A DNA stretch of 38,187 nucleotides from the IMG/VR virus record IMGVR_UViG_3300046170_000124, positions 1 to 38,187 of that record, one strand, 5' to 3'. The stretch is from a virus. The translations under genes and the position numbers were made by a program. Shown piece by piece: positions 1 through 38,187 of this stretch. The stretch's first letter is position 1, and every line of letters starts with the position of its first letter. The notes beneath the pieces are model-generated. The model ran no database searches, had not been told where the DNA came from, and saw only the letters and a list, made by a program, of their open reading frames with translations.

Positions 1-65
1 CTATTCTAATATATCAAGCTGTCAAATTTTTTTATGCGATATAACAAACGGCAATAATACTGACC

Positions 66-81
66 TATATTTTAAAATATA
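66..81. repeat. Perfect 16-bp AT palindrome
   Basis: TATATTTTAAAATATA reads the same on both strands. The right-hand counterpart at 34877-34888 keeps a 12-bp perfect core, TATTTTAAAATA. Conservation of the palindrome between otherwise diverged copies suggests a protein-binding or melting site, but no factor can be named. Confidence 0.6.
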
Positions 82-231
82 AAGATTAAAAGTTATTAGT
101 ATTAATAATCATAAGTTATCGTTAGTAATATTTTACAGCTAGATTGCTTTTTTTTAATCTAAAGTATAGGGTACCACCCCCAGACGCACCCGCCGATTAT
201 TATATATATATACATCGGACTGTAGGACACC

Positions 232-263
232 TTTACACACAGACACCTTTATACACAGACACC
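232..263. repeat. Two tandem 16-bp units carrying DnaA-box-like sequences
   Basis: The units are TTTACACACAGACACC (232-247) and TTTATACACAGACACC (248-263). The second contains TTATACACA (249-257), which fits the bacterial DnaA box TTATNCACA exactly; the first has one mismatch (TTACACACA, 233-241). The homologous right-hand region has only one unit (35041-35056), so copy number varies. The window also encodes a DnaA domain IV protein. Confidence 0.7.
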
Positions 264-303
264 TTTTACTTTCATTCCACACAAAATAAACTATATGTAG
301 TAT

Positions 304-496
304 ATGAACTACTTTTTCATCAGAAGATCTAGATTGTGTTTGCTTTATTGAAGAAAAAACAAACAATGTTGTAATTAAATTCTTTGGTATGCCTAACAAT
401 GAGTCTGCTGAACTATTTACATCTTACATTATGATGAGACTAGGATTTGAATACACACCTTTTGGAGAGCAAAACTTTAGCAAATCAATTCACTAG
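304..496 (+). CDS. Small conserved protein ahead of TerL, left copy, frameshifted
   Basis: This is the left copy of the 63-aa protein at 35097-35288. It has five T's near 313-317 where the right copy has four, so the frame breaks after about five codons and then resumes as the same protein up to the TAG at 494-496. The extra T is probably a sequencing or assembly error in this end of the contig. It lies two bases upstream of the TerL start, as in the right copy. Function unknown. Confidence 0.6.
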
Positions 497-498
497 AT

Positions 499-1771
499 AT
501 GGATATTAAGATACCCTATACACCTAGGAAACATCAAGCTCACTTACATAGACAAATAGATAAGCATAGATGGAATGTGCTAGTTTGTCACAGAAGGTTT
601 GGAAAGACAGTATGTATGATTAACCACCTAATTAGGTCAGCATTACTGTCCAAACTCAAGAACCCAAGATTTGCATACATTGCTCCAACCTTTCAAACAA
701 GCTAAAGCATTGCATGGGATTACATGAAACAGTTCACCGCCAAAATACCCCACACTAAATTTAACGAAACAGAGCTTAGAGTAGATTTGCCAAATGGTTC
801 TCGTATCACTTTGCTAGGCTCAGAATCGCCAGATGGATTAAGAGGGATTTACCTTGACGGATGTGTGATTGATGAATATGCAAACGTCAACAGTAAGTTA
901 TTTCCAGAAATTATTAGACCAGCATTATCAGATCGAAAAGGTTATTGTGTCTTTATTGGAACTCCAATGGGAATGAACAACAACTTCTATGAGTTGTACC
1001 AACACGCACAAGGTGCGGATGATTGGTTTAACTACAAGGCAAAAGCATCAGATACCAAGATTGTAGATGAGGATGAGTTGGTCAAGGCAAAAGAAGTTAT
1101 GGGTGAAAAGAAGTACCTACAAGAGTTTGAGTGTGATTGGATAGCAAACATAGAAGGTGCAGTATATGGAGATATTATTGCAAAACTAGATGATGATAAA
1201 CAATTAACTAGAGTTCCCTACGATCCTGCTCTACCAGTATCTACCGCATGGGATCTCGGGGTCTCCGACCACAGTAGTATAATATTTTATCAGCAGCTTA
1301 GGCAGAAGCATAAGTATAATAGATTATCATGAAGAGAGAGGTCAAGGTTTACCTTACTATGTTCAGCTTGTTAAAGACAAAGATTATGTTTACAAAGATC
1401 ACTTTGCACCACACGACATTGAAGTTACCGATTTTGGCAATGGCAAAACCAGGAGAGAGGTCGCCTACCAATTAGGAATTAGGTTCAAGGTAGTTCCAAA
1501 AATTCCACTAGAGGATGGCATACACGCAACCACAATGACTTTGCCTAGATGCTGGATTGATACAGACCATTGCAAAAAGTTAATAGATGCATTAAGACAT
1601 TACCACAGGAAGTATATTGATAAGAATAGAATGTTCAGATCAAAACCTGTACATGATTGGAGTTCACACGCTTGTGATGCAATGCGTTACCTTGCTGTTG
1701 GACTACAAGAAATTAACACTAGACAAACTGCTCCACAAAGTATAGCAGATAATAGTTATAGGATTATTTAA
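499..1771 (+). CDS. terL: Terminase large subunit, left copy, interrupted by indels
   Basis: Same protein as the intact 423-aa TerL at 35291-36562. Here an extra C near 688 and a missing A near 708 create a short out-of-frame stretch with a TAA at 703-705, and an extra A near 1300 breaks the frame again. Readable pieces are 499-705, 724-1332 and about 1300-1771. The total is 1273 nt against 1272 nt in the intact copy, so the net change is one base. The pieces retain the Walker A (CHRRFGKT), the Walker B (VIDE) and the C-terminal nuclease motif HACDAMRY. Errors in the assembly are more likely than a true pseudogene, because other genes in the first 9.4 kb show the same kind of defect. Confidence 0.85.
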
Positions 1772-1773
1772 TT

Positions 1774-1992
1774 ATGGGATTTTTAAAACCAAAACCACCA
1801 GTATTACCACCACCACCTCCAGCACCAGAACCGCCAAGTGCTGAGTTATCATCAGAGGAAAAAGAAGCGATTGCAAAAGAACAGGCAGCAGTTGAAAGAA
1901 GAAGAAAAGGTAGAAAGTCTACCATACTTACTTCACCTCTTGGAGTACAGGAAGATAAGGAAGAACAGTTAGAAACTTTACTAGGTAAATAA
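1774..1992 (+). CDS. Small proline-rich protein with RGRKSTILTSPLG-type C-terminus (left copy)
   Basis: 72 aa. Residues 5-22 are mostly proline, followed by a charged helix and then KGRKSTILTSPLGV and a final ETLLGK. It lies between TerL and portal and starts two bases after the TerL stop. The right copy (36565-36786) differs at several residues in the proline-rich part but keeps the C-terminal block, so that block is under constraint. A similar block ends the 196-aa protein at 2199-2789. Small proteins with this ending are common near terminase and portal genes of podoviruses. Function unknown; a head or portal interaction is inferred from position only. Confidence 0.7.
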   Translation: MGFLKPKPPVLPPPPPAPEPPSAELSSEEKEAIAKEQAAVERRRKGRKSTILTSPLGVQEDKEEQLETLLGK

Positions 1993-2196
1993 ATGTTTGA
2001 AAAAATTAAAAAAATTTTTAAAAGAAAACCAAAAGATAAACCTTTAGTTTTAAAAGATGAAAAAAGAACTTACGAAAAAAAAATAGATCATAGTAATGAT
2101 ATAACTTTTGAAAATGAAATTAACAAACCACAAGTGAATGAAACAATAACTGAAACAAAATCAGAAACTAAATCATCACTAACATTAGGAGAATAA
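1993..2196 (+). CDS. Lysine/glutamate-rich small protein (left copy)
   Basis: 67 aa, very rich in Lys, Glu and Thr. The N-terminus is basic (IKKIFKRKPKDKP) and the C-terminus is polar and probably unstructured (TETKSETKSS). It starts directly after the preceding stop. The right copy at 36788-36991 differs only at residues 2-3 (FE against LD). Not recognised. Confidence 0.6.
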   Translation: MFEKIKKIFKRKPKDKPLVLKDEKRTYEKKIDHSNDITFENEINKPQVNETITETKSETKSSLTLGE

Positions 2197-2198
2197 TT

Positions 2199-2789
2199 AT
2201 GGGTGGAGCAAGTACAGGTGGTGGTGGCGGAGGTGTCGGACCAGCAGGAGTAAGAGTTAGTAAAAAAGGTGTAAAAACTTATGGAACTAAAAAAGATGCA
2301 AAAAAAACCTCAACTAGAAATGAAACTAGAAAAGCAGTAACAGAATTTGTTAAAGGTGGTGGTGTTATTGGTGCAATTGCTAAAGGTATTACTGATACAG
2401 TTAAAAAATCAAAAGAAAAAAAAGTTGAACGTAAAGTTAATGATACTCTTATAGGTACTCCAGATTATCAAGGTGATGTAGCAAAAAAACCTACAAAAGT
2501 TACTACTCCAGTAAGAGATAATGATGGTGGAAATAATAATACACCTACACCTAAAGTTAAAGTAGCAGAAATACCAAAAGTAAATACAGCACCTACAGAA
2601 GCTGAAGTAGATCAAAGTTCTGCAACAAATACAACTACAGTTGAAGAACCAAAAAAAGTAGATGATATTTATACTAGAAAAAGAAAAGCAAAAGCTAGAG
2701 GTAGATCAATGATGACATTAACTGGTCCTCGTGGTTTACGAAAAGATGAAAAACTTACATTAGGTAAACCAAGTCTATTAGGATCGTAA
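2199..2789 (+). CDS. Gly-rich, basic structural-region protein (left copy)
   Basis: 196 aa. It begins with a glycine run (GGASTGGGGGGVGPAG), continues as a Lys- and Thr-rich, low-complexity body with GTKKDAKK-like segments, and ends with RGRSMMTLTGPRGL and PSLLGS. That ending resembles the KGRKSTILTSPLG...LLGK ending of the protein two genes upstream. The last base of its stop overlaps the portal start codon. The right copy (36994-37584) has a few substitutions. Likely a minor head-region or disordered protein; no enzymatic motif seen. Confidence 0.65.
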   Translation: MGGASTGGGGGGVGPAGVRVSKKGVKTYGTKKDAKKTSTRNETRKAVTEFVKGGGVIGAIAKGITDTVKKSKEKKVERKVNDTLIGTPDYQGDVAKKPTKVTTPVRDNDGGNNNTPTPKVKVAEIPKVNTAPTEAEVDQSSATNTTTVEEPKKVDDIYTRKRKAKARGRSMMTLTGPRGLRKDEKLTLGKPSLLGS

Positions 2790-4417
2790 TGGCAAGAACA
2801 GATTTAAGTAAAAGTTTATTGTCAAGGTATGATAAACTTGAAAGTCAAAGACAAAACTGGGAAACGCATTGGCAAGAAGTTGCAGATTATATGCAACCAA
2901 GAAAAGCAGATGTAACTAAAACTAGAGCAAGAGGTGATAAAAGAAACGAATTAATTTTTGATTCATCACCAATACAAGCAGTAGAATTATTAGCAGCATC
3001 ATTACATGGTATGTTGACAAATCCATCAACACCTTGGTTTACCCTAAGATTTAAAGAAGAAGATATTGATAACGAAGAAGAAGCAAAAATTTGGTTAGAG
3101 TCTGCAACAGACGCAATGTACACAGCGTTTAATAGATCAAACTTCCAACAAGAAATATTTGAATTGTATCATGATCTAATTACGTTTGGAACTGCTGCAA
3201 TGTTTATTGAAGAAGATCAAGATGATATAATTAAATTTTCAACAAGACATATCAACGAAGTATTTATTGCAGAGAATGATAAAGGTAGAATAGATACAAT
3301 ATTTAGAAAATTTAAAATATCTGCTAGAGCTGCGTTACAAAAATTTGGCGATAATGTTTCATCAGATATACAAGGTATCTTTAGAAAAGATCCTTACCAA
3401 GAAGTAGAAATACTACACGCAGTTTATCCAAGAGCAGACTTTAATCCTAAGAAAAAAGATAAAGAAAATATGCCATTTGAATCTGTTTACCTAGAATATA
3501 AAAATGGAAATGAATTATCTATATCTGGATTTAAAGAATTTCCTTTTGTAGTACCAAGATACTTAAAAGCATCAAACGAAATTTATGGTAGATCTCCAGC
3601 AATGACAGCTTTGCCAGACGTTAAGATGCTAAACGAAATGTCAAAGACTACAATTAAAGCTGCACAGAAACAAGTTGACCCACCACTATTAGTTCCAGAC
3701 GATGGTTTCTTACTTCCTGTAAGAACTGTACCAGGTGGATTAAACTTTTATAGAAGTGGTACTAGAGATAGAATTGAACCATTAAACATTGGTGCAAACA
3801 ATCCACTAGGATTAAACATGGAAGAGCAAAGAAGAGATGCAATCAGAGCTGTGTTCTATGTTAATCAACTTATGATGCAACAAGGTCCACAAATGACAGC
3901 AACAGAAGTTATCCAAAGAAACGAAGAGAAGATGAGATTACTTGGTCCAGTATTAGGTAGACTACAATCAGAATTATTAAAACCATTAATTGATAGAGTG
4001 TTTAATATATTACTTAGAAACAATATGTTTTCACCAGCACCAGAATTTTTATCTGGTAGAGATATAGAAATAGAATATGTATCTCCACTTGCTAAAGCAC
4101 AAAAATCTTCAGAGCTACAATCTATTATGAGAGCAATAGAAATATTAGGTAGCCTTGCAAACGTAGCACCAGTATTTGATTATGTTAACTTTGACAATCT
4201 TGTGAAACACTTGGCAGACATAGTTGGTATGCCACAGAAATTATTAAAATCACAAAACGAAGTTAATGCTCAAAGACAAGAAGCAGCACAAGCTGCAGAA
4301 CAACAACAACAAATGGCACAGATGCAACAAGTTGCACAAGCCGCAGGAGATGTAGCACCACTAGCAAAAGCATTGCCAGAAGAAGCAAGAGCTGTAGCAA
4401 ATGCTGAAGTGGAATAG
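2789..4417 (+). CDS. Portal (head-tail connector) protein, T7 gp8-like
   Basis: 542 aa, close to the usual length of T7-type connector proteins. The N-terminus has the family pattern of an RYDKLESQRQNWETHWQEVA helix followed by DYMQPR, then FDSSPIQAVELLAASLHGML and WFTLRF. The C-terminal 40 residues are Gln- and Ala-rich (EQQQQMAQMQQ), typical of the coiled crown region. The portal forms the dodecameric ring at the capsid vertex through which DNA is packaged and ejected. It overlaps the upstream stop by one base and is followed at once by the Bbp19-like gene. The first 604 bases appear again at the right end of the window. Confidence 0.95.
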   Translation: MARTDLSKSLLSRYDKLESQRQNWETHWQEVADYMQPRKADVTKTRARGDKRNELIFDSSPIQAVELLAASLHGMLTNPSTPWFTLRFKEEDIDNEEEAKIWLESATDAMYTAFNRSNFQQEIFELYHDLITFGTAAMFIEEDQDDIIKFSTRHINEVFIAENDKGRIDTIFRKFKISARAALQKFGDNVSSDIQGIFRKDPYQEVEILHAVYPRADFNPKKKDKENMPFESVYLEYKNGNELSISGFKEFPFVVPRYLKASNEIYGRSPAMTALPDVKMLNEMSKTTIKAAQKQVDPPLLVPDDGFLLPVRTVPGGLNFYRSGTRDRIEPLNIGANNPLGLNMEEQRRDAIRAVFYVNQLMMQQGPQMTATEVIQRNEEKMRLLGPVLGRLQSELLKPLIDRVFNILLRNNMFSPAPEFLSGRDIEIEYVSPLAKAQKSSELQSIMRAIEILGSLANVAPVFDYVNFDNLVKHLADIVGMPQKLLKSQNEVNAQRQEAAQAAEQQQQMAQMQQVAQAAGDVAPLAKALPEEARAVANAEVE

Positions 4418-25479: not shown

Positions 25480-25640
25480 TGAAAAAAGGTTATCACAAAA
25501 CTAAATCTGGTAAAATGGCTAAGAAGGGTCTTTACTATAACATCAATAAAAAAAAACGAGCTGGTACTTCGAAAAGTAAAGCTAAGAGTACAATTTCTGC
25601 AAAGGCTTACAGAAATATGAAGTCTGGATTTAAGAAGTAG
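25479..25640 (+). CDS. 53-aa basic conserved phage protein (GLYYNI...KKRAGT type)
   Basis: Starts at 25479 in TAATG. The core KKGLYYNINKKKRAGTSKSK and the end RNMKSGFKK match a widespread family of tiny phage basic proteins (GLYANI-H/N-KKR pattern). It is the last gene of the late rightward run, and its 3' end overlaps the convergent DnaA-like gene by 11 nt. Function unknown. Confidence 0.65.
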   Translation: MKKGYHKTKSGKMAKKGLYYNINKKKRAGTSKSKAKSTISAKAYRNMKSGFKK

Positions 25641-26163
25641 TTATTGGCAACAACTCTTCTTTTAATTTAGAATACTCTTCCCATATAGGATATTCAGTTC
25701 CCCAATATCTAGACTTGTTTTGTTTATTGTTTAGTGAATGTAAAACTGTAGTGTGATCTTGACCAAACACTCTTCCAATAGATGAGATACTTATATTATA
25801 TTCTTCATGTAAAAGATTATAAAGTATACTTCTTGTTCTAACTATATCTCTAGTTCTACCTTTGCCAAACACATCGTGTTTACTTACAAGATATTTTTCA
25901 CAAACCTTATCTACTATTTTATTAACAGTTTCTAAGTTTGCATTCTTATAAACAACTCCAATTATTTTTTTATTACTATCATCAATAGGTTGTTTCTGTA
26001 AAAGTTTTGCAGCATATAAAAATCCTTCCGAGAACCCTACCTCATATAATCTTTCTTCTTGGTTCGTAAGAAGGTAAAATGCTTTCTTAACTTTGTATAC
26101 GAATGTGTTTTGGTCTAAGTGTTTTATATGTTTATTATAGTGTTGACTTACGTTTATGGTCAT
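25630..26163 (-). CDS. DnaA domain IV-like DNA-binding protein without AAA+ domain
   Basis: 177 aa. Residues about 77-155 are a bacterial DnaA C-terminal domain: VFGKGRTRDIVRTRSILYNL, then SSIGRVFGQDHTTVLHSL. Aligned by eye to E. coli DnaA, the DNA-contact residues are all kept: Arg399 as Arg103, Arg407 as Arg111, Asp433 as Asp136, His434 as His137 and Thr435 as Thr138. Residues 1-75 show no Walker motifs and no AAA+ domain. It should bind DnaA boxes but cannot by itself form an ATP-dependent filament. It lies at the end of the replication/recombination block and converges with the late genes (11-bp overlap, no terminator seen). Confidence 0.88.
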   Translation of the reverse strand: MTINVSQHYNKHIKHLDQNTFVYKVKKAFYLLTNQEERLYEVGFSEGFLYAAKLLQKQPIDDSNKKIIGVVYKNANLETVNKIVDKVCEKYLVSKHDVFGKGRTRDIVRTRSILYNLLHEEYNISISSIGRVFGQDHTTVLHSLNNKQNKSRYWGTEYPIWEEYSKLKEELLPITTS

Positions 26164-27161: not shown

Positions 27162-27854
27162 TTAATTATCTAAAAATTGTTGTTTATTATTTGTTAGTTT
27201 GACTTCATGCTCACGAGTTTTGTCTCTGATTTGTTCGTATGCTTTGAAGTTATTGGTTTTAAGATGATTAACAACTGATCTTACTTGACTTTTAACTGAG
27301 TCTAATTGTTTTTCAGTTTTAGTTTTTTCGATCCTGTCAATGATCTCTTCTACATCTATCTCATCATCAAGATAGGTAGGTTCTTCTACAGATTTCTCTG
27401 AAGAATTTTTCTCAAATGGTTTTGCATTGTAACCATCTTCTAAATCTAAACCTGTTTTTAAGTTTAGTGCATTTAAGAATGCATACTTTTTACTGTATGA
27501 CATTGCTTGACCAGTTCCGTATTTATCTAAACCACCCATTGCAGTACATCCATCAATGACAATAAAACTTGCTGGATCATCGATGTCAGTTATTCTCATG
27601 GTGCAAGTTACAATTACAAATCTATCCGTAACATCTGTTATGTAATTGCAGGTTGGATATAAACCATTTTTTAAAAGAGCTTCCATTGCCACTCTTTGCA
27701 CATCATCATGAAGTAAAGGATTAAAAGGCATACCTTTAACCTTACTTGCTTTCTTTACACCACTTGCATGATTACAAGCATTGTGTAACTTCTTGTGTAT
27801 GTTTGTCGTATTTTTACTTCCCATTCTATATACGTTATTATTTTCACTACTCAT
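27162..27854 (-). CDS. erf: ERF-type single-strand annealing protein
   Basis: 230 aa. The ERF signature is at about 113-141 (GTGQAMSYSKKYAFLNAL, then TGLDLEDG), after DGCTAMGG. Upstream LHDDVQRVAMEALLKNGLYP also fits. The C-terminal third is charged and probably flexible. Such proteins pair complementary single strands in phage recombination. It overlaps the exonuclease gene end by 8 nt, so the two are made together, as in other exonuclease-annealase pairs. Confidence 0.88.
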   Translation of the reverse strand: MSSENNNVYRMGSKNTTNIHKKLHNACNHASGVKKASKVKGMPFNPLLHDDVQRVAMEALLKNGLYPTCNYITDVTDRFVIVTCTMRITDIDDPASFIVIDGCTAMGGLDKYGTGQAMSYSKKYAFLNALNLKTGLDLEDGYNAKPFEKNSSEKSVEEPTYLDDEIDVEEIIDRIEKTKTEKQLDSVKSQVRSVVNHLKTNNFKAYEQIRDKTREHEVKLTNNKQQFLDN

Positions 27855-28764
27855 ATTTAATACCCCATAGTTTATTGATTAGTTGTTTTTGTTCATCTGC
27901 TAAATCTTTATAATAAAAGAAATGATTAAGATCTGGTGGCTCCATCATATTAGCTAATCTATTAATGTTACCTTCAGCAAACATAATCATCTTCTCCCAT
28001 GTTAGAATTTTATCTACCATGATATTGTAAAGATGTTGCAAGTGATCTGCCTTCATTAACTCATGGCTTTTATCAAAGATGACATAATCTTTATCATTAA
28101 CATATACCAAGTAAGGTATCTTCTTTGTTGCCATGTAGTAGAACGAAGTTTGTGTAAGGTTTTCAATCGTAGGCTCTGTAGGTAATTCTTGAGTAATCAT
28201 GTTCCACTCTTCTTTACCTTTAACCTTCCTTAAATTAGGTGGTTTAGTTTTAAGTTCTATAAATTTTGTTTTACTTTCATAATCTATTCTACCTAGAATA
28301 TGTTTGATCATATCAAATTCTTTTAGCTCTACATATCTTTCGCAAACTAATTTATCTTTACCCATTATTTGTTGCACAACTTTTTTTGTAATAGGAATAC
28401 AATCCATCGCAAATCTAATCATAGCTTCTCTGCCGTACTTATCTTTTGCGTCTACGGGTGGGTTCTTATTAATTTCTTCTTGCTCAGCTTTAAAACAAAC
28501 ATTAAAATTTCTATCCCACTCTGTTTCTTTAATTGTTTTAGTTTTATAAATTACATCTGCGATCTGTTTCTGGACCACATTATTTACTAGGTTGCCAAAG
28601 TTTGCTTTGTATCTAAATGGAAACTTCCTTCTAATTTCTTGAGGGAAACTATAACCAATAATATTTTTTGCGAAAGGTGTTGAGGTGCTAGAATAAGACC
28701 AATGATCTAATCCTTCTCCACCATTAAATATTGAAAATGCTTTTTCTATTTTGTTTTTTTCCAT
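27847..28764 (-). CDS. PD-(D/E)XK exonuclease (lambda exo/RecB-like), partner of ERF
   Basis: 305 aa. The catalytic core reads HILGRIDYESKTKFIELKTK, giving Asp161 and Glu170-x-Lys172, followed by QTSFYY (Q-x3-Y motif, 205-209). This is the arrangement of Cas4/RecB/lambda exo nucleases. It would resect double-strand ends to give 3' tails for the ERF protein. It is the first gene of the leftward block, directly behind the divergent promoter region. Confidence 0.85.
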   Translation of the reverse strand: MEKNKIEKAFSIFNGGEGLDHWSYSSTSTPFAKNIIGYSFPQEIRRKFPFRYKANFGNLVNNVVQKQIADVIYKTKTIKETEWDRNFNVCFKAEQEEINKNPPVDAKDKYGREAMIRFAMDCIPITKKVVQQIMGKDKLVCERYVELKEFDMIKHILGRIDYESKTKFIELKTKPPNLRKVKGKEEWNMITQELPTEPTIENLTQTSFYYMATKKIPYLVYVNDKDYVIFDKSHELMKADHLQHLYNIMVDKILTWEKMIMFAEGNINRLANMMEPPDLNHFFYYKDLADEQKQLINKLWGIKYE

Positions 28765-29624: not shown

Positions 29625-30299
29625 ATGAATACATCTAGGGGATTTTTACATATTACCTATAAACTATACCACCACTTAGATATTATTGACGGAGTTAAGA
29701 AGTCTTATTGTCTTAATGTTTTTTTATCTGTCATGAAATATGCTTGGAAGAAAAATGGATATAAAGCAGGACTAAGGCATGAAACAATCCATAAAGACAC
29801 AGGACTTTGCCGAACTACAATCAAAGAGTGTTTGGAAACTTTAAATAAACTTAATATTGTTAAATCTATTCGAGGTCGATCTGGAAAAACTTATGTTGTA
29901 AATGAAGTATTTTTGAGAGCTGAAAAACTTTACGAGCCAACCCAGATAGCCGTGTCACCGACACGAGATAGCCGTAATACGACTACATTAGAAGAAACAA
30001 TATCCATTAATAATATAGGTAAAATAGTTAAGAGTTTTGCAGGGGATAGGGAGAAGATATTAGATGAATTATCTAAACTCCCTATTGAAGATTTAAAAGA
30101 AGATAAAACTAATATCTATTTATGTAAACTAGCTATTGAACGTAAACAAGATAATGAGAGAGAGAAGAGTGCAACATATGTAAATGCTGATAAAATATTG
30201 TCGGCATTGTCCAAAATAAAGAAAGAAACTAATCCAAGATACAAAGAAAAAAAAGCATATAATATTCGTAATGGTATTAAACCATGGGAAAGTAAGTAA
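29625..30299 (+). CDS. Winged helix-turn-helix protein (replication or transcription regulator)
   Basis: 224 aa with AAGGAAA upstream. Residues about 20-105 form a winged HTH: LNVFLSVMKYAWKKNGYKAG, then IHKDTGLCRTTIKECLETLN (recognition helix) and KLNIVKSIRGRSGKTYVVNE (wing). The C-terminal part is charged and helical. This layout occurs in phage replication initiators and regulators. It may bind the operator-like palindromes at 28795-28807 and 34705-34719. Confidence 0.7.
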   Translation: MNTSRGFLHITYKLYHHLDIIDGVKKSYCLNVFLSVMKYAWKKNGYKAGLRHETIHKDTGLCRTTIKECLETLNKLNIVKSIRGRSGKTYVVNEVFLRAEKLYEPTQIAVSPTRDSRNTTTLEETISINNIGKIVKSFAGDREKILDELSKLPIEDLKEDKTNIYLCKLAIERKQDNEREKSATYVNADKILSALSKIKKETNPRYKEKKAYNIRNGIKPWESK

Positions 30300-30738
30300 A
30301 TGCCAGGTAGACCCATGCGTAAAGTGTTTTGTCAAGGTTTTACTCGTGCCGGATTAAGAAAGGGATTAAAGATACCTTGTAAAATGAAAGGGTTATCTAC
30401 TTGCAAACAATGTTTATAAGTGTAAATATCATGGCTATCAAAATGTTAAGGGATTTAAAAAAGAAAACTACACAGATGAAACTAGGATCAAACAGCTATC
30501 CAAACTAATACAATTTAAAAACTATACAGATGATAAACTCAAAGAATATTACTACGAAAAAATCAAACCAGGAATTGATAACAACAAACCAAGCAGATAT
30601 AATATGCGACAAACTAGCAAATGGAAAAACCCTTACCGAAATTCTGGAGGATCAAAAGGAATATCCGTTCAGCTTGATGAAGTTTTATGCGTACTTAAAA
30701 AAAAATCCAGAATTAGAAATAAAAATAACGGAAGCTAG
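30300..30738 (+). CDS. Cys/His zinc-type small protein (HGG-like), split by a +1 frameshift
   Basis: The first frame from ATG 30300 reads MPGRPMRKVFCQGFTRAGL ... CKMKGLSTCKQCL and stops at 30419. One base later the frame reads KCKYHGYQNVKGF, then DETRIKQLSKLIQFKNYTDD, open to 30738. Joined, the C ... C-x6-C-x2-C ... C-x2-HG pattern resembles small phage HGG-type proteins found near terminase genes. The true end may be earlier, because the second frame runs about 208 nt into the small terminase gene. The break is probably an extra base near 30416. Confidence 0.55.
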
Positions 30739-31006
30739 AAAATATGGAGTTCAAACTTTAATTGATAAACTACTTCAAGTCTTTAAGTATCAAGAAATTG
30801 AGGACCCAAATGCTATCTTGTGGATAAGAGAAAAAACTAAATTTATAACTTTCCTTGCTAATAAATTAACTGATCTTTATTCTGATAATAAAGTTCAACA
30901 AGTTAAAACAGATCAAAGTATAAAAATTTCTTGGGAAGATAATCAAAGTGATTTGATTGATGTAACTGCTGAAGATGTTTCAACAGCTACACCAGATAAA
31001 GATTAA
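30530..31006 (+). CDS. terS: Small terminase subunit, Sf6-like
   Basis: 158 aa. The N-terminal HTH region at about 20-80 (QADIICDKLANGKTLTEILE, then FSLMKFYAYLKKNPELEIKI, then TEARKYGVQTLIDKLLQV) matches Sf6-type TerS DNA-binding domains. The middle (AILWIREKTKFITFLANKL) would oligomerise, and the end is acidic. TerS picks the packaging site and loads TerL. It lies in a different block from TerL, about 4.3 kb before the right-hand TerL copy with a leftward operon between. Confidence 0.78.
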   Translation: MINSKNITTKKSNQELITTNQADIICDKLANGKTLTEILEDQKEYPFSLMKFYAYLKKNPELEIKITEARKYGVQTLIDKLLQVFKYQEIEDPNAILWIREKTKFITFLANKLTDLYSDNKVQQVKTDQSIKISWEDNQSDLIDVTAEDVSTATPDKD

Positions 31007-33261: not shown

Positions 33262-34020
33262 TTATTTAAGATCAACCACAAACCCGGAATTGTCCCGGTC
33301 TAGTTTACCTTTATCATTTAAAGTTAATTTTTCTTTAAGACCTACAACGACATTTTTATCATCTAAAAATCTTAGATCGTGTAAATCTCCATTTATAACC
33401 TTAAAACCTTTATATTTTGCCGGTAGTTTATTTCTAAAAACTACAGCTACATTGCCACCGGCTTTTAAAACTTGAGTAGCTTGAAAGTCATTAACTTCAT
33501 TACGACTAAATGTTAAATGATAATTAGCCGGTAATTGACCCTTTAAATATTTAATCATACGTTTAAAATGTTTTGTGTAGTCGTAAAATTGGACGTTAGG
33601 AAACAACTCAAATATTTTGTGATTTTCCCACATAATATCACTAGTTGTGTTTAATCTTACAACCGGTTTTAAGTTCTTTTTTTTACAGTTGATTTCATGA
33701 TTTCTAATTTCACGGGTCATCATGCTTAAAAATTTAGCACGTTCTTTAAAATAAAATAAAGTTCTATTAACCCTTCCTAATGTTTTTTGTGGCATATGGA
33801 CCGGGTTACCGGCTTCATGTAAACAAGCACCCTCACAACCTTTAGATTTACTTGCACAAACTTCATAACCGGATATTTTTGCCGGTGCAAAATTTAAACG
33901 TTTGATTAGATAATCTTCTAAACCTTCTATATGTTTGTTTTTATCAGTTTTAATATTGCCATTTGTAAACATCAACTTTGTTAAGTCATGATATGTAGGC
34001 TTTGTTTTTTGTAGTGTCAT
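33262..34020 (-). CDS. Gp88-family protein with conserved Cys motif
   Basis: 252 aa. Motifs in order: LNFAPAKISGYEVC, CASKSKGCEGAC (Cys55, Cys62, Cys66), RLNTTSDIMWEN (122-133), FYDYTKHFKRM (145-155), GGNVAVVFRNKLP (188-200), GDLHDLRFLDDKNVVVGL (211-228). This is the full pattern of the phage 'gene product 88' family. The three Cys could hold a metal or iron-sulfur cluster; biochemical activity is not known to me. AAGGGAAAA precedes the start. Likely an early enzyme acting on host or phage metabolism. Confidence 0.75.
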   Translation of the reverse strand: MTLQKTKPTYHDLTKLMFTNGNIKTDKNKHIEGLEDYLIKRLNFAPAKISGYEVCASKSKGCEGACLHEAGNPVHMPQKTLGRVNRTLFYFKERAKFLSMMTREIRNHEINCKKKNLKPVVRLNTTSDIMWENHKIFELFPNVQFYDYTKHFKRMIKYLKGQLPANYHLTFSRNEVNDFQATQVLKAGGNVAVVFRNKLPAKYKGFKVINGDLHDLRFLDDKNVVVGLKEKLTLNDKGKLDRDNSGFVVDLK

Positions 34021-34611: not shown

Positions 34612-34673
34612 AATATTAACCTTTCTTTTTTGTTTGTTTAATTCAATTTAATATATTGATTAATTAATGTAAG

Positions 34674-34719
34674 TTGACAAATTGACGCAGTTATAGATTA
34701 TAGTTTAGAATAGTTCTAA
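34674..34719 (+). promoter_or_regulatory. Rightward promoter with inverted-repeat operator
   Basis: TTGACG (34682-34687), 18 bases, TAGAAT (34706-34711). A perfect TTGACA also lies at 34674-34679. The inverted repeat TTAGAA-TAG-TTCTAA (34705-34719) covers the -10 and would suit a repressor. AATAGTTCTAA (34709-34719) occurs again at 28803-28813 in the divergent promoter region. Likely drives late rightward transcription through a long leader. Confidence 0.55.
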
Positions 34720-34754
34720 GGTTTAATGTTGTTAAGTTGTGAGATTAAAATATT

Positions 34755-34800
34755 GAGAGTTAAAAAGATTGAGAGTTAAAAAGATTGAGAGTTAAAATTA
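34755..34800. repeat. Tandem 16-bp repeats (iteron-like)
   Basis: GAGAGTTAAAAAGATT occurs exactly at 34755-34770 and 34771-34786, followed by a partial copy (GAGAGTTAAAATTA, 34787-34800). Degenerate copies flank it (GAGATTAAAATATT at 34741; GAGTGTTAAAA at about 34803). Spacing is near 1.5 helical turns. Such arrays bind replication initiators or regulators; which protein binds here is unknown. Confidence 0.75.
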
Positions 34801-34902
34801 TAGAGTGTTAAAACTATCCTATCCAATTATAAAGCCAGGCAATTTTTATTTCCCGTATTAAGGCTAACGGGTTTAATATTTTAAAATATAAAGAGTTTTA
34901 TT

Positions 34903-34939
34903 TATTACTATTAATAATCATAAGTTATCGTTAGTAATA
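34903..34939. repeat. Inverted repeat TATTACTA / TAGTAATA
   Basis: Arms 34903-34910 and 34932-34939 pair perfectly around 21 bases. The loop and right arm are conserved in the left copy (about 102-131), but the left arm there has one change (TATTAGTA). May be a protein site, not a strong hairpin, given the AT content. Confidence 0.5.
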
Positions 34940-34973
34940 TTTACCGGATAGATTGCTTTTTTTTAAAATGTTG

Positions 34974-35056
34974 ACCCCCGGTACACCCCCAGACGCACCC
35001 GCCGATTATTATATATATATACATGGGACTGTAGGACACCTTTATACACAGACACC
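34974..35056. other. Candidate replication origin: C-rich patch, TA run, DnaA box
   Basis: A C-rich tract nearly free of G on this strand (34974-35004) is followed by an alternating TA run (35006-35024), as in a DNA-unwinding element, and then TTTATACACAGACACC (35041-35056) with TTATACACA (35042-35050), an exact DnaA consensus box. A related GACACC precedes it. The order is conserved in the left copy, where a second unit is present. Linked to the DnaA domain IV protein at 25630-26163. A packaging site is the main alternative. Confidence 0.55.
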
Positions 35057-35096
35057 TTTTACTTTCATTCCACACAAAATAAACTATATGTAGTAT

Positions 35097-35288
35097 ATGA
35101 ACTACTTTTCATCAGAAGATCTAGATTGTGTTTGCTTTATTGAAGAAAAAACAAACAATGTTGTAATTAAATTCTTTGGTATACCTAACAATGAGTCTGC
35201 TGAGTTATTTACATCTTACATTATGATGAGACTAGGATTTGAATACACTCCTTTTGGAGAGCAAAACTTTAGCAAATCAATTCACTAG
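35097..35288 (+). CDS. Small conserved protein ahead of TerL (intact copy)
   Basis: 63 aa, acidic. NYFSSEDLDCVCFIEEKTNN, then VVIKFFGIPNNESAELFTSY and MMRLGFEYTPFGEQNFS. First gene after the candidate origin and two bases ahead of TerL. Function unknown. The left copy at 304-496 is frameshifted, which confirms this frame as the coding one through its matching codons. Confidence 0.6.
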   Translation: MNYFSSEDLDCVCFIEEKTNNVVIKFFGIPNNESAELFTSYIMMRLGFEYTPFGEQNFSKSIH

Positions 35289-35290
35289 AT

Positions 35291-36562
35291 ATGGATATTA
35301 AGATACCCTATACACCTAGGAAACATCAAGCTCATTTACATAGACAAATAGATAAGCACAGATGGAATGTACTCGTATGCCATCGTAGGTTCGGTAAAAC
35401 AGTATGCATGATTAACCACCTAATTAGGTCAGCATTACTGTCCAAACTCAAGAACCCAAGATTTGCATACATAGCTCCAACTTTCAAACAAGCCAAAAGC
35501 ATTGCATGGGATTACATGAAACAGTTCACCGCCAAAATACCCCACACTAAATTTAACGAAACAGAGCTTAGAGTAGATTTGCCAAATGGTTCTCGTATTA
35601 CTTTGCTAGGCTCAGAATCGCCAGATGGATTAAGAGGGATTTACCTTGACGGATGTGTGATTGATGAATATGCAAACGTCAACAGTAAGTTATTTCCAGA
35701 AATTATTAGACCAGCATTATCAGATCGCAAAGGTTATTGTGTCTTTATTGGAACTCCAATGGGAATGAACAACAACTTCTATGAGTTGTACCAACACGCA
35801 CAAGGTGCGGATGATTGGTTTAACTACAAAGCAAAAGCATCAGATACCAAGATTGTAGATGAGGATGAGTTAGTCAAAGCAAAAGAAGTTATGGGTGAAA
35901 AAAAGTACCTACAAGAATTTGAGTGTGATTGGATAGCAAACATAGAAGGAGCAGTATATGGAGATATTATTGCAAAACTAGATGATGATAAACAATTAAC
36001 TAGAGTTCCCTACGATCCTGCTCTACCTGTATCTACCGCATGGGATCTCGGTGTCTCCGACCACAGTAGTATAATATTTTATCAGCAGCTTGGCAGAAGC
36101 ATAAGTATAATAGATTATCATGAAGAGAGAGGTCAAGGTTTACCTTACTATGTTCAGCTTGTTAAAGACAAAGATTATGTTTACAAAGATCACTTTGCAC
36201 CACACGACATTGAAGTTACCGATTTTGGCAATGGCAAAACCAGGAGAGAGGTCGCATACCAATTAGGAATTAGGTTCAAGGTAGTTCCAAAAATTCCACT
36301 AGAAGATGGAATACACGCAACCTCAATGACCTTGCCTAGATGCTGGATTGATACAGACCATTGCAAAAAGTTAATAGATGCGTTAAGACATTACCATAGG
36401 AAGTACATCGACAAAAATAGAATGTTCAGATCGAAACCTGTCCACGACTGGAGCAGTCATGCGTGTGATGCGATGAGGTATCTAGCTGTTGGACTACAAG
36501 AAATTAATACTAGACAATCGGCTCCACAAAGTGTAGCAGATAATAGTTACAGGATTATATAA
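35291..36562 (+). CDS. terL: Terminase large subunit (intact copy)
   Basis: 423 aa. ATPase: Walker A CHRRFGKT (30-37), Walker B GCVIDE (121-126), coupling motif IGTP (153-156). Nuclease: WDLGVSD with Asp252 and Asp257, APHDIE (303-308), and HACDAMRY with Asp393. It packages and cuts the concatemeric DNA. Its small subunit is in another block (30530-31006). The next gene starts two bases later. Confidence 0.95.
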   Translation: MDIKIPYTPRKHQAHLHRQIDKHRWNVLVCHRRFGKTVCMINHLIRSALLSKLKNPRFAYIAPTFKQAKSIAWDYMKQFTAKIPHTKFNETELRVDLPNGSRITLLGSESPDGLRGIYLDGCVIDEYANVNSKLFPEIIRPALSDRKGYCVFIGTPMGMNNNFYELYQHAQGADDWFNYKAKASDTKIVDEDELVKAKEVMGEKKYLQEFECDWIANIEGAVYGDIIAKLDDDKQLTRVPYDPALPVSTAWDLGVSDHSSIIFYQQLGRSISIIDYHEERGQGLPYYVQLVKDKDYVYKDHFAPHDIEVTDFGNGKTRREVAYQLGIRFKVVPKIPLEDGIHATSMTLPRCWIDTDHCKKLIDALRHYHRKYIDKNRMFRSKPVHDWSSHACDAMRYLAVGLQEINTRQSAPQSVADNSYRII

Positions 36563-36564
36563 TT

Positions 36565-36786
36565 ATGGGATCAATATTTAAACCAAAACCACCACCGCTA
36601 CCGCCAGTGCAACCTGCACCAGAGCCACCGAAAGCAGAAATTTCACCAGAAGAAAAAGAAGCTATCGCAAAAGAACAGGCAGCAGTTGAGAGAAGAAGAA
36701 GAGGTAGAAAGTCTACAATACTTACTTCACCACTTGGTGTACAAGAAGATGAAGAGTCTAAATTAGAAACTTTATTAGGTAAATAA
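36565..36786 (+). CDS. Small proline-rich protein (right copy)
   Basis: 73 aa. Compared with the left copy (72 aa) the N-terminal proline region differs (GSIFKPKPPPLPPVQPAPEP), and KAEISPEEKEA replaces SAELSSEEKEA. The RGRKSTILTSPLGVQED block and the LLGK end are kept. These differences are substitutions plus one codon, not frameshifts, which shows two real alleles. Confidence 0.7.
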   Translation: MGSIFKPKPPPLPPVQPAPEPPKAEISPEEKEAIAKEQAAVERRRRGRKSTILTSPLGVQEDEESKLETLLGK

Positions 36787-36787
36787 T

Positions 36788-36991
36788 ATGTTAGATAAAA
36801 TTAAAAAAATTTTTAAAAGAAAACCAAAAGATAAACCTTTAGTTTTAAAAGATGAAAAAAGAACTTACGAAAAAAAAATAGATCATAGTAATGATATAAC
36901 TTTTGAAAATGAAATTAACAAACCACAAGTGAATGAAACAATAACTGAAACAAAATCAGAAACTAAATCATCACTAACATTAGGAGAATAA
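36788..36991 (+). CDS. Lysine/glutamate-rich small protein (right copy)
   Basis: 67 aa, the same as the left copy at 1993-2196 except residues 2-3. Starts two bases after the previous stop. Near-identity at this point marks where the two strain versions become almost the same. Confidence 0.6.
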   Translation: MLDKIKKIFKRKPKDKPLVLKDEKRTYEKKIDHSNDITFENEINKPQVNETITETKSETKSSLTLGE

Positions 36992-36993
36992 TT

Positions 36994-37584
36994 ATGGGTG
37001 GAGCAAGTACAGGTGGTGGTGGCGGAGGTGTCGGACCAGCAGGAGTAAGAGTTAGTAAAAAAGGTGTAAAAACTTATGGAACTGCAAAAGATGCAAAAAA
37101 AGTTTCAAATAGAAATGAAACTAGAAAAGCAGTAACAGAATTTGTTAAAGGTGGTGGTGTTATTGGTGCAATTGCTAAAGGTATTACTGATACAGTTAAA
37201 AAATCAAAAGAAAAAAAAGTTGAACGTAAAGTTAATGATACTCTTATAGGTACTCCAGATTATCAAGGTGATGTAGCAAAAAAACCTACAAAAGTTACTA
37301 CTCCAGTAAGAGATAATGATGGTGGAAATAATAATACACCTACACCTAAAGTTAAAGTAGCAGAAATACCAAAAGTAAATACAGCACCTACAGAAGCTGA
37401 AGTAGATCAAAGTTCTGCAACAAATACAACTACAGTTGAAGAACCAAAAAAAGTAGATGATATTTATACTAGAAAAAGAAAAACAAAAGCTAGAGGTAGA
37501 TCAATGATGACATTAACTGGTCCTCGTGGTTTACGAAAAGATGAAAAACTTACATTAGGTAAACCAAGTCTATTAGGATCGTAA
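36994..37584 (+). CDS. Gly-rich, basic structural-region protein (right copy)
   Basis: 196 aa. Differs from the left copy at a few residues (GTAKDAKKVSNRNE against GTKKDAKKTSTRNE; KRKTKARG against KRKAKARG). Ends RGRSMMTLTGPRGL ... PSLLGS as in the left copy. Its stop overlaps the portal start. Confidence 0.65.
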   Translation: MGGASTGGGGGGVGPAGVRVSKKGVKTYGTAKDAKKVSNRNETRKAVTEFVKGGGVIGAIAKGITDTVKKSKEKKVERKVNDTLIGTPDYQGDVAKKPTKVTTPVRDNDGGNNNTPTPKVKVAEIPKVNTAPTEAEVDQSSATNTTTVEEPKKVDDIYTRKRKTKARGRSMMTLTGPRGLRKDEKLTLGKPSLLGS

Positions 37585-38187
37585 TGGCAAGAACAGATTT
37601 AAGTAAAAGTTTATTGTCAAGGTATGATAAACTTGAAAGTCAAAGACAAAACTGGGAAACGCATTGGCAAGAAGTTGCAGATTATATGCAACCAAGAAAA
37701 GCAGATGTAACTAAAACTAGAGCAAGAGGTGATAAAAGAAATGAATTAATTTTTGATTCATCACCAATACAAGCAGTAGAATTATTAGCAGCATCATTAC
37801 ATGGTATGTTGACAAACCCATCAACACCTTGGTTTACCCTAAGATTTAAAGAAGAAGATATTGATAACGAAGAAGAAGCAAAAATTTGGTTAGAGTCTGC
37901 AACAGACGCAATGTACACAGCGTTTAATAGATCAAACTTCCAACAAGAAATATTTGAATTGTATCATGACTTAATTACGTTTGGAACTGCTGCAATGTTT
38001 ATTGAAGAAGATCAAGATGATATAATTAAATTTTCAACAAGACATATCAACGAAGTATTTATTGCAGAGAATGATAAAGGTAGAATAGATACAATATTTA
38101 GAAAATTTAAAATATCTGCTAGAGCTGCGTTACAAAAATTTGGCGATAATGTTTCATCAGATATACAAGGTATCTTTAGAAAAGATC
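37584..38187 (+). CDS. Portal protein, right copy, cut by the window end
   Basis: First 201 codons of the T7 gp8-like portal described at 2789-4417. Only a few silent differences from the left copy were noticed. Incomplete because the sequence ends here. Confidence 0.9.
   Translation, partial: MARTDLSKSLLSRYDKLESQRQNWETHWQEVADYMQPRKADVTKTRARGDKRNELIFDSSPIQAVELLAASLHGMLTNPSTPWFTLRFKEEDIDNEEEAKIWLESATDAMYTAFNRSNFQQEIFELYHDLITFGTAAMFIEEDQDDIIKFSTRHINEVFIAENDKGRIDTIFRKFKISARAALQKFGDNVSSDIQGIFRKD

Follow-up and report, generated by a model that had tools for sequence, protein, structure and literature searches.

Few viruses of the ocean are as abundant as the HTVC010P-type phages, whose replication and gene timing are largely unknown. 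SAR11, the pelagiphage host, is an abundant ocean bacterium. DnaA was listed among the proteins of all HTVC010P-related genomes by Chen et al. 2019 (PMC6811365). The GenBank annotation of the gene reads ‘DNA replication initiation (DnaA)’ in HTVC024P, HTVC203P and others, and ‘Bac_DnaA_C’ in Greip. Stand-alone DnaA domain IV proteins of similar size also occur in other phages, namely in PHROG 27829 (named ‘DnaA-like replication initiation protein’), in PHROG 16091 and among the UniProt ‘DnaA C-terminal’ proteins of uncultured Caudovirales (92–205 aa), although the N-terminal parts of these proteins differ from that of the protein studied here. No literature on the tested function of a phage DnaA-domain protein was found.

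The window, i.e., the whole stretch of 38,187 bases that was analysed, comprises a complete virus record. Bases 1–3392 and ~34,793–38,187 are two near-identical copies at an offset of ~34,792–34,809, and the genome is therefore about 34.8 kb long with a terminal overlap. The end copies carry mismatches, and the overlap thus mixes variants or holds sequencing differences. The proteins that it encodes and the order of its genes mark the window as the genome of a pelagiphage of the HTVC010P type. The genes are grouped in a late operon for structural proteins, an early operon of small ORFs that runs leftward, a block containing a lambda-O-like gene and a recombination block. The latter comprises, in this order, a nuclease, an Erf annealing protein, small ORFs, DUF3310 and, as the last gene, the DnaA domain IV-only protein (DnaA_C). 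In agreement with the sequence-only reading that preceded this work, a search for polymerase, helicase and primase among the window proteins scanned found none. The product of a minus-strand gene at 33262–34020 matches GP88 (Pfam PF17338, E 4e-49), a family with no known function. The coordinates of the main features are given in Table 1.

Table 1. Features of the window discussed in the text
Feature	Position	Strand	Remarks
DnaA domain IV-only protein (DnaA_C)	25630..26163	-	177 aa, ATG at 26163
Parts of the DnaA_C protein			helical N-terminus, residues 1-76; DnaA domain IV, residues 77-171
Bac_DnaA_C domain proper	25729..25923	-	Pfam PF08299 at nucleotide coordinates
Erf-type single-strand annealing protein	27162..27854	-	DnaA_C operon
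Putative nuclease	27847..28764	-	DnaA_C operon; named from cultured relatives; no Pfam/PHROG match
Lambda-O-like replication initiator (putative)	29625..30299	+	winged-helix-like N-domain, disordered linker, helical C-domain
Two iterons AGATAGCCGT	29944..29975	+	22-nt spacing, linker of O-like gene
Synonymous-constraint stretch, codons 114-143 of O-like gene	29964..30053	+	candidate origin, AT-rich stretch
Intergenic region, leftward early operon / late operon	34612..35096	+	16-bp repeats (34737-34816), conserved TATATATATACATGGGA, DnaA box
DnaA box TTATACACA	35042..35050	+	late (terminase) operon leader, 55 bp before ORF at 35097

DnaA_C was found in 19 pelagiphage records and is strictly conserved, being carried by every HTVC010P-type isolate found. 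It is also present in hundreds of viral contigs, two scans having yielded 145 and 320 stretches that match, and BFVD contains 32 matches with E ≤ 0.001, many of them stand-alone DnaA C-terminal proteins of uncultured Caudovirales. The DnaA genes of the HTVC010P type (HTVC024P gp26, Greip gp42, Skadi1_28 and HTVC010P AGE60316) are direct orthologues in the same operon position, with 37–73% identity to the window protein over most of its length; the sole difference is sequence divergence. Hence, the window gene is another member of an already known, uncharacterised group. A scan of genome contigs with the family profile gave a sole match, a phage-bearing contig in a MAG. Contig L098 (PBPJ01000001.1) is filed under a Woesearchaeota MAG and encodes a pelagiphage DnaA_C, which probably reflects phage contamination of the bin.

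Fold and DNA-contact residues of DnaA_C

Pfam Bac_DnaA_C matches residues 81–145 of the protein (E = 2.4e-17; 63.2 bits against a cut-off of 31.5), and in the PDB its sequence matches the DNA-binding domains of DnaA proteins (1j1v, E = 1.6e-7; with the family profile, 2.6e-10), so the match is not due to chance. The motifs GRTRDIVRTR and RVFGQDHTTVLHS are both present. An AlphaFold model, for which 43 family members were included in the input, has block means of ~87–95 pLDDT for residues 71–170 (about 90 for the domain). The top Foldseek matches of this model were M. tuberculosis 3pvp and E. coli 1j1v, the latter with a TM of 0.86 by target length and an rmsd of 1.6 Å over 93 columns. For the N-terminus of ~75 aa, helices were predicted at residues 5–18, 21–30 and 34–57 with a pLDDT of ~46–74, which makes this part uncertain; Foldseek gave it no structural match of its own. 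The sequence-only reading had placed at exactly 25630–26163 a DnaA domain IV lacking the AAA+ ATPase and joined to an unrelated N-terminus of about 75 residues. Pfam, the PDB matches and the comparison of the predicted structure with E. coli domain IV all bear this out, and the gene lies on the minus strand.

No AAA+ match was obtained for the protein, and database matches were confined to its C-terminal part. TIGR00362, the full-length equivalog model of cellular DnaA, scored 60.8 bits against a cut-off of 343.9 and matched only residues 64–149. DnaA_C is not a cellular DnaA initiator, as it is devoid of the AAA+ ATPase domain III, and it is very likely incapable of ATP-driven assembly. It shares with cellular DnaA domain IV (PF08299) the fold and a set of DNA-contact residues, and is unlike cellular DnaA in having no domains I–III, in several replaced residues and in its unrelated helical N-terminus.

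The residues were equated through the 1j1v alignment, residue 1 of which we take to be E. coli DnaA residue 374. In this numbering, R103, R111, D136, H137, T138 and T139 correspond to Arg399, Arg407, Asp433, His434, Thr435 and Thr436. The equivalents of the base-contacting Arg399 and of Asp433-His434-Thr435 are kept. R103, R111, D136, H137 and T139 are invariant in 43 diverse relatives, and T138 is at least 90% conserved. At Arg399 and Thr435, the most important of the contacts in E. coli, the mutations R399A and T435M render DnaA defective in box binding (review PMC5742627). The earlier claim that all DNA-contact residues are kept holds for Arg399, Arg407, Asp433, His434 and Thr435, and is too strong as a whole because Gln408, Pro423 and Arg432, among which are presumed DNA contacts of the E. 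coli protein, are replaced by S112, S127 and Q135, the glutamine being invariant among phages. The substitutions could shift the specificity of the protein. DnaA_C can very likely bind sites that resemble a DnaA box.

A lambda-O-like gene with a candidate origin

The O-like ORF is annotated as a ‘putative transcriptional regulator’ in cultured relatives, and its product was found in the same 19 phage records as DnaA_C. PHROG 678, ‘replication initiation O-like’, was matched by 26/38 diverse family members at E ≤ 0.001 (the window protein at 7.8e-5), and PHROG 270 by 11/38. In the model of the protein the disordered linker spans residues 101–128; a fold search with this model returned generic winged-helix matches only. 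An Sf6-type small terminase gene (30530–31006, plus strand) adjoins the O-like gene and not terL, and in many cultured relatives this position is occupied by other genes.

The DNA encoding the linker contains repeats. The pair of AGATAGCCGT iterons is accompanied by an inverted ACGGCTA in many members of the family. The two copies of HTVC204P have the sequence AGATAGCTCA, with GAGCTA, and a third copy is present in some members; in the O-like genes of other phages, the iterons vary in concert between copies. The best direct repeat fell within codons 85–135, which cover the linker, in 80/90 O-like genes, compared to 72/270 synonymous shuffles, and its mean length was 10.9 against 8.0 in the shuffles. 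The same part of the gene is constrained at synonymous positions. Codons 114–143 form the 30-codon stretch with the highest synonymous identity (0.93, compared to a gene mean of 0.68), whereas in seven control genes the 30-codon peaks exceeded the genes' own means by about 0.10 at most; 30-codon windows were discriminating and nine-codon windows were not. No overlapping ORF of at least 50 aa in another frame was found across these codons. Together, the iterons and the near-complete synonymous-codon conservation occupy 29944–30066 on the plus strand, within the O-like ORF.

From these sequence features, the stretch most likely is an origin embedded in an initiator gene, as in lambda, with origin activity expected at the iterons. 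As with lambda O and ori-lambda, a winged-helix-like N-domain is combined with linker DNA that carries iterons and is followed by an AT-rich stretch. Unlike in lambda, the iterons number two to three copies of ~10 nt at 22-nt spacing, and a counterpart of the loader P was not identified; a search for a helicase loader among the small early ORFs with PHROGs found none. The likely origin and initiator are thereby moved from the gene labelled ‘DNA replication initiation (DnaA)’ to another gene.

One-mismatch DnaA boxes occurred near the O-like gene at 1.62 vs 1.22 per kb in 11 genomes. A plasmid-type origin with DnaA boxes was considered for the phage and rejected, since no DnaA-box cluster lies beside the O-gene iterons. 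The sequence-only reading suggested that the DnaA fragment could steer host DnaA to the phage origin. The data do not support this: the phage has an O-like initiator gene of its own, with embedded iterons and synonymous constraint, and DnaA boxes are not enriched there. GC skew was also tried as an origin marker for the window and discarded, as it tracks gene strand only.

DnaA boxes in the late-operon leader and the role of DnaA_C

DnaA boxes are not in overall excess in these genomes. The exact box TTATNCACA was counted 18 times in 11 genomes (383 kb), with 13–28 expected from Markov models, and the count of TTATACACA was typical of permuted words. In the window, 41 one-mismatch boxes were found vs 72 expected, and the number of exact boxes was ordinary under better background models. 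No excess was seen upstream of the DnaA_C gene in the 11 genomes, and autoregulation through upstream boxes was rejected on this ground.

One box does recur at a defined place. The leader box of the window, a second copy of which lies in the terminal overlap (249–257), lies in the relatives on the strand of the small ORF that precedes terL, mostly 55–67 bp upstream of it. Across 11 genomes it is the exact TTATNCACA in 6/11 and has one mismatch in the remainder. Among 68 unique leaders, the box within this interval was exact in 39 and had at most one mismatch in 62, compared to shuffle means of 1.3 and 13.5; for 34 divergent leaders the corresponding numbers were 16 and 30 vs 0.5 and 6.1. HTVC028P, whose terminase is 60% identical and whose late genes follow the same order, lacks the DnaA_C and O-like genes. 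In 46 unique leaders of the HTVC028P type the exact box was absent (0/46), and a box with at most one mismatch was found once (1/46); this comparison with a sister clade represents one evolutionary split. DnaA_C or the O-like protein is encoded in 0/58 HTVC028P-type loci, many of which are short fragments.

The kept box contacts, the recurrent late-operon box, the position of the gene at the end of its operon and the separate initiator and origin favour a DnaA DNA-binding domain repurposed for regulation at the late leader. This is the best reading of the data, and a tentative one. DnaA_C ends the early/middle recombination operon, and the leader of the terminase/structural operon contains the box. 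A protein that joins domain IV of a bacterial DnaA to a short helical module would bind DnaA-box-like sites without ATP control and without any helicase-loading activity of its own; it would most likely regulate at the late-operon leader by binding the box, either as an activator or as a repressor. Replication would be started by the O-like protein, which may fire the origin, most likely the iteron cluster in its own gene, with host helicase, primase and polymerase. The whole combination, a DnaA domain serving as a late-expression switch that reads the late-operon box plus a lambda-like origin hidden in the ‘transcriptional regulator’ gene, is possible but doubtful. The leader box could also be part of another element, such as a promoter or packaging signal, because the leader is conserved as a block, with the box (1.33 bits) barely above its flanks (1.17 and 1.04), and because the aligned position of the box differs between clades, with two alternatives. 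Host DnaA could be a user of the site as well. No sigma-70 promoter fixing the leader box relative to a transcription start was recognisable.

A domain with kept DNA-contact residues and no AAA+ part might instead mask boxes at the host oriC and at DnaA-regulated genes, acting as a dominant negative by which host initiation is halted and helicase and polymerase become available to the phage. The strict conservation in HTVC010P-type isolates is consistent with such a takeover, and freeing host replisomes would pay for a phage without replisome genes; however, it explains neither the leader box nor the fact that box and DnaA_C gene occur together, and it appears rather unlikely. Many plasmid origins at which DnaA acts have a DnaA box as well as iterons and an AT-rich stretch, and in the terminus region of the window a single DnaA box occurs together with repeats and AT-rich DNA. 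DnaA_C could accordingly be imagined as a helper that binds at the origin of the phage and brings in host DnaA, helicase or the O-like protein, which would fit both its co-occurrence with the latter and the annotation ‘DNA replication initiation’ in relatives. Against this, DnaA boxes are not in excess at the candidate origin, the gene sits with recombination genes rather than beside the O-like gene, and the all-helical N-terminus is unlike DnaA domain I, as we take that fold to be; the helper role is distinctly unlikely.

Two further readings turn on the leader itself. The box might belong to a promoter or RNA leader by coincidence, with DnaA_C having another DNA-binding role without DnaA-box specificity. 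The invariant Q135 and S127, which differ from cellular DnaA, would agree with this, as would several clades with only degenerate boxes (TTATTCAAT, TTATACAAA and TTATCAACA). However, exact boxes are retained where the flanks have diverged, in numbers far exceeding those of shuffles, and are gone where the DnaA_C gene is absent, which makes coincidence improbable. The site also adjoins terL, which lies within the terminal repeats in Skadi-1 (PMC10504331), and the block conservation of the leader would suit a terminal-repeat or packaging signal marked by DnaA_C; the separate small terminase in the window speaks against this, and such a role is very improbable. In the preferred reading, regulation at the late leader, the DnaA fragment gains a concrete candidate DNA target. 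If true, an abundant ocean phage lineage has turned a stripped-down DnaA DNA-binding domain into a late-gene switch.

The intergenic region containing the box has other repeated elements. At 34737–34816, a 16-bp unit, TTGAGAGTTAAAAAGA, occurs in four tandem copies, and different purine-rich repeats are found there in other phages; the sequence of these iteron-like repeats is not common between genomes. An operator-like palindrome, TTAGAA(N3)TTCTAA, recurs near the early promoter in many relatives; it lies at ~34703–34717 in the window and is also present in the upstream regions of L090–L096.
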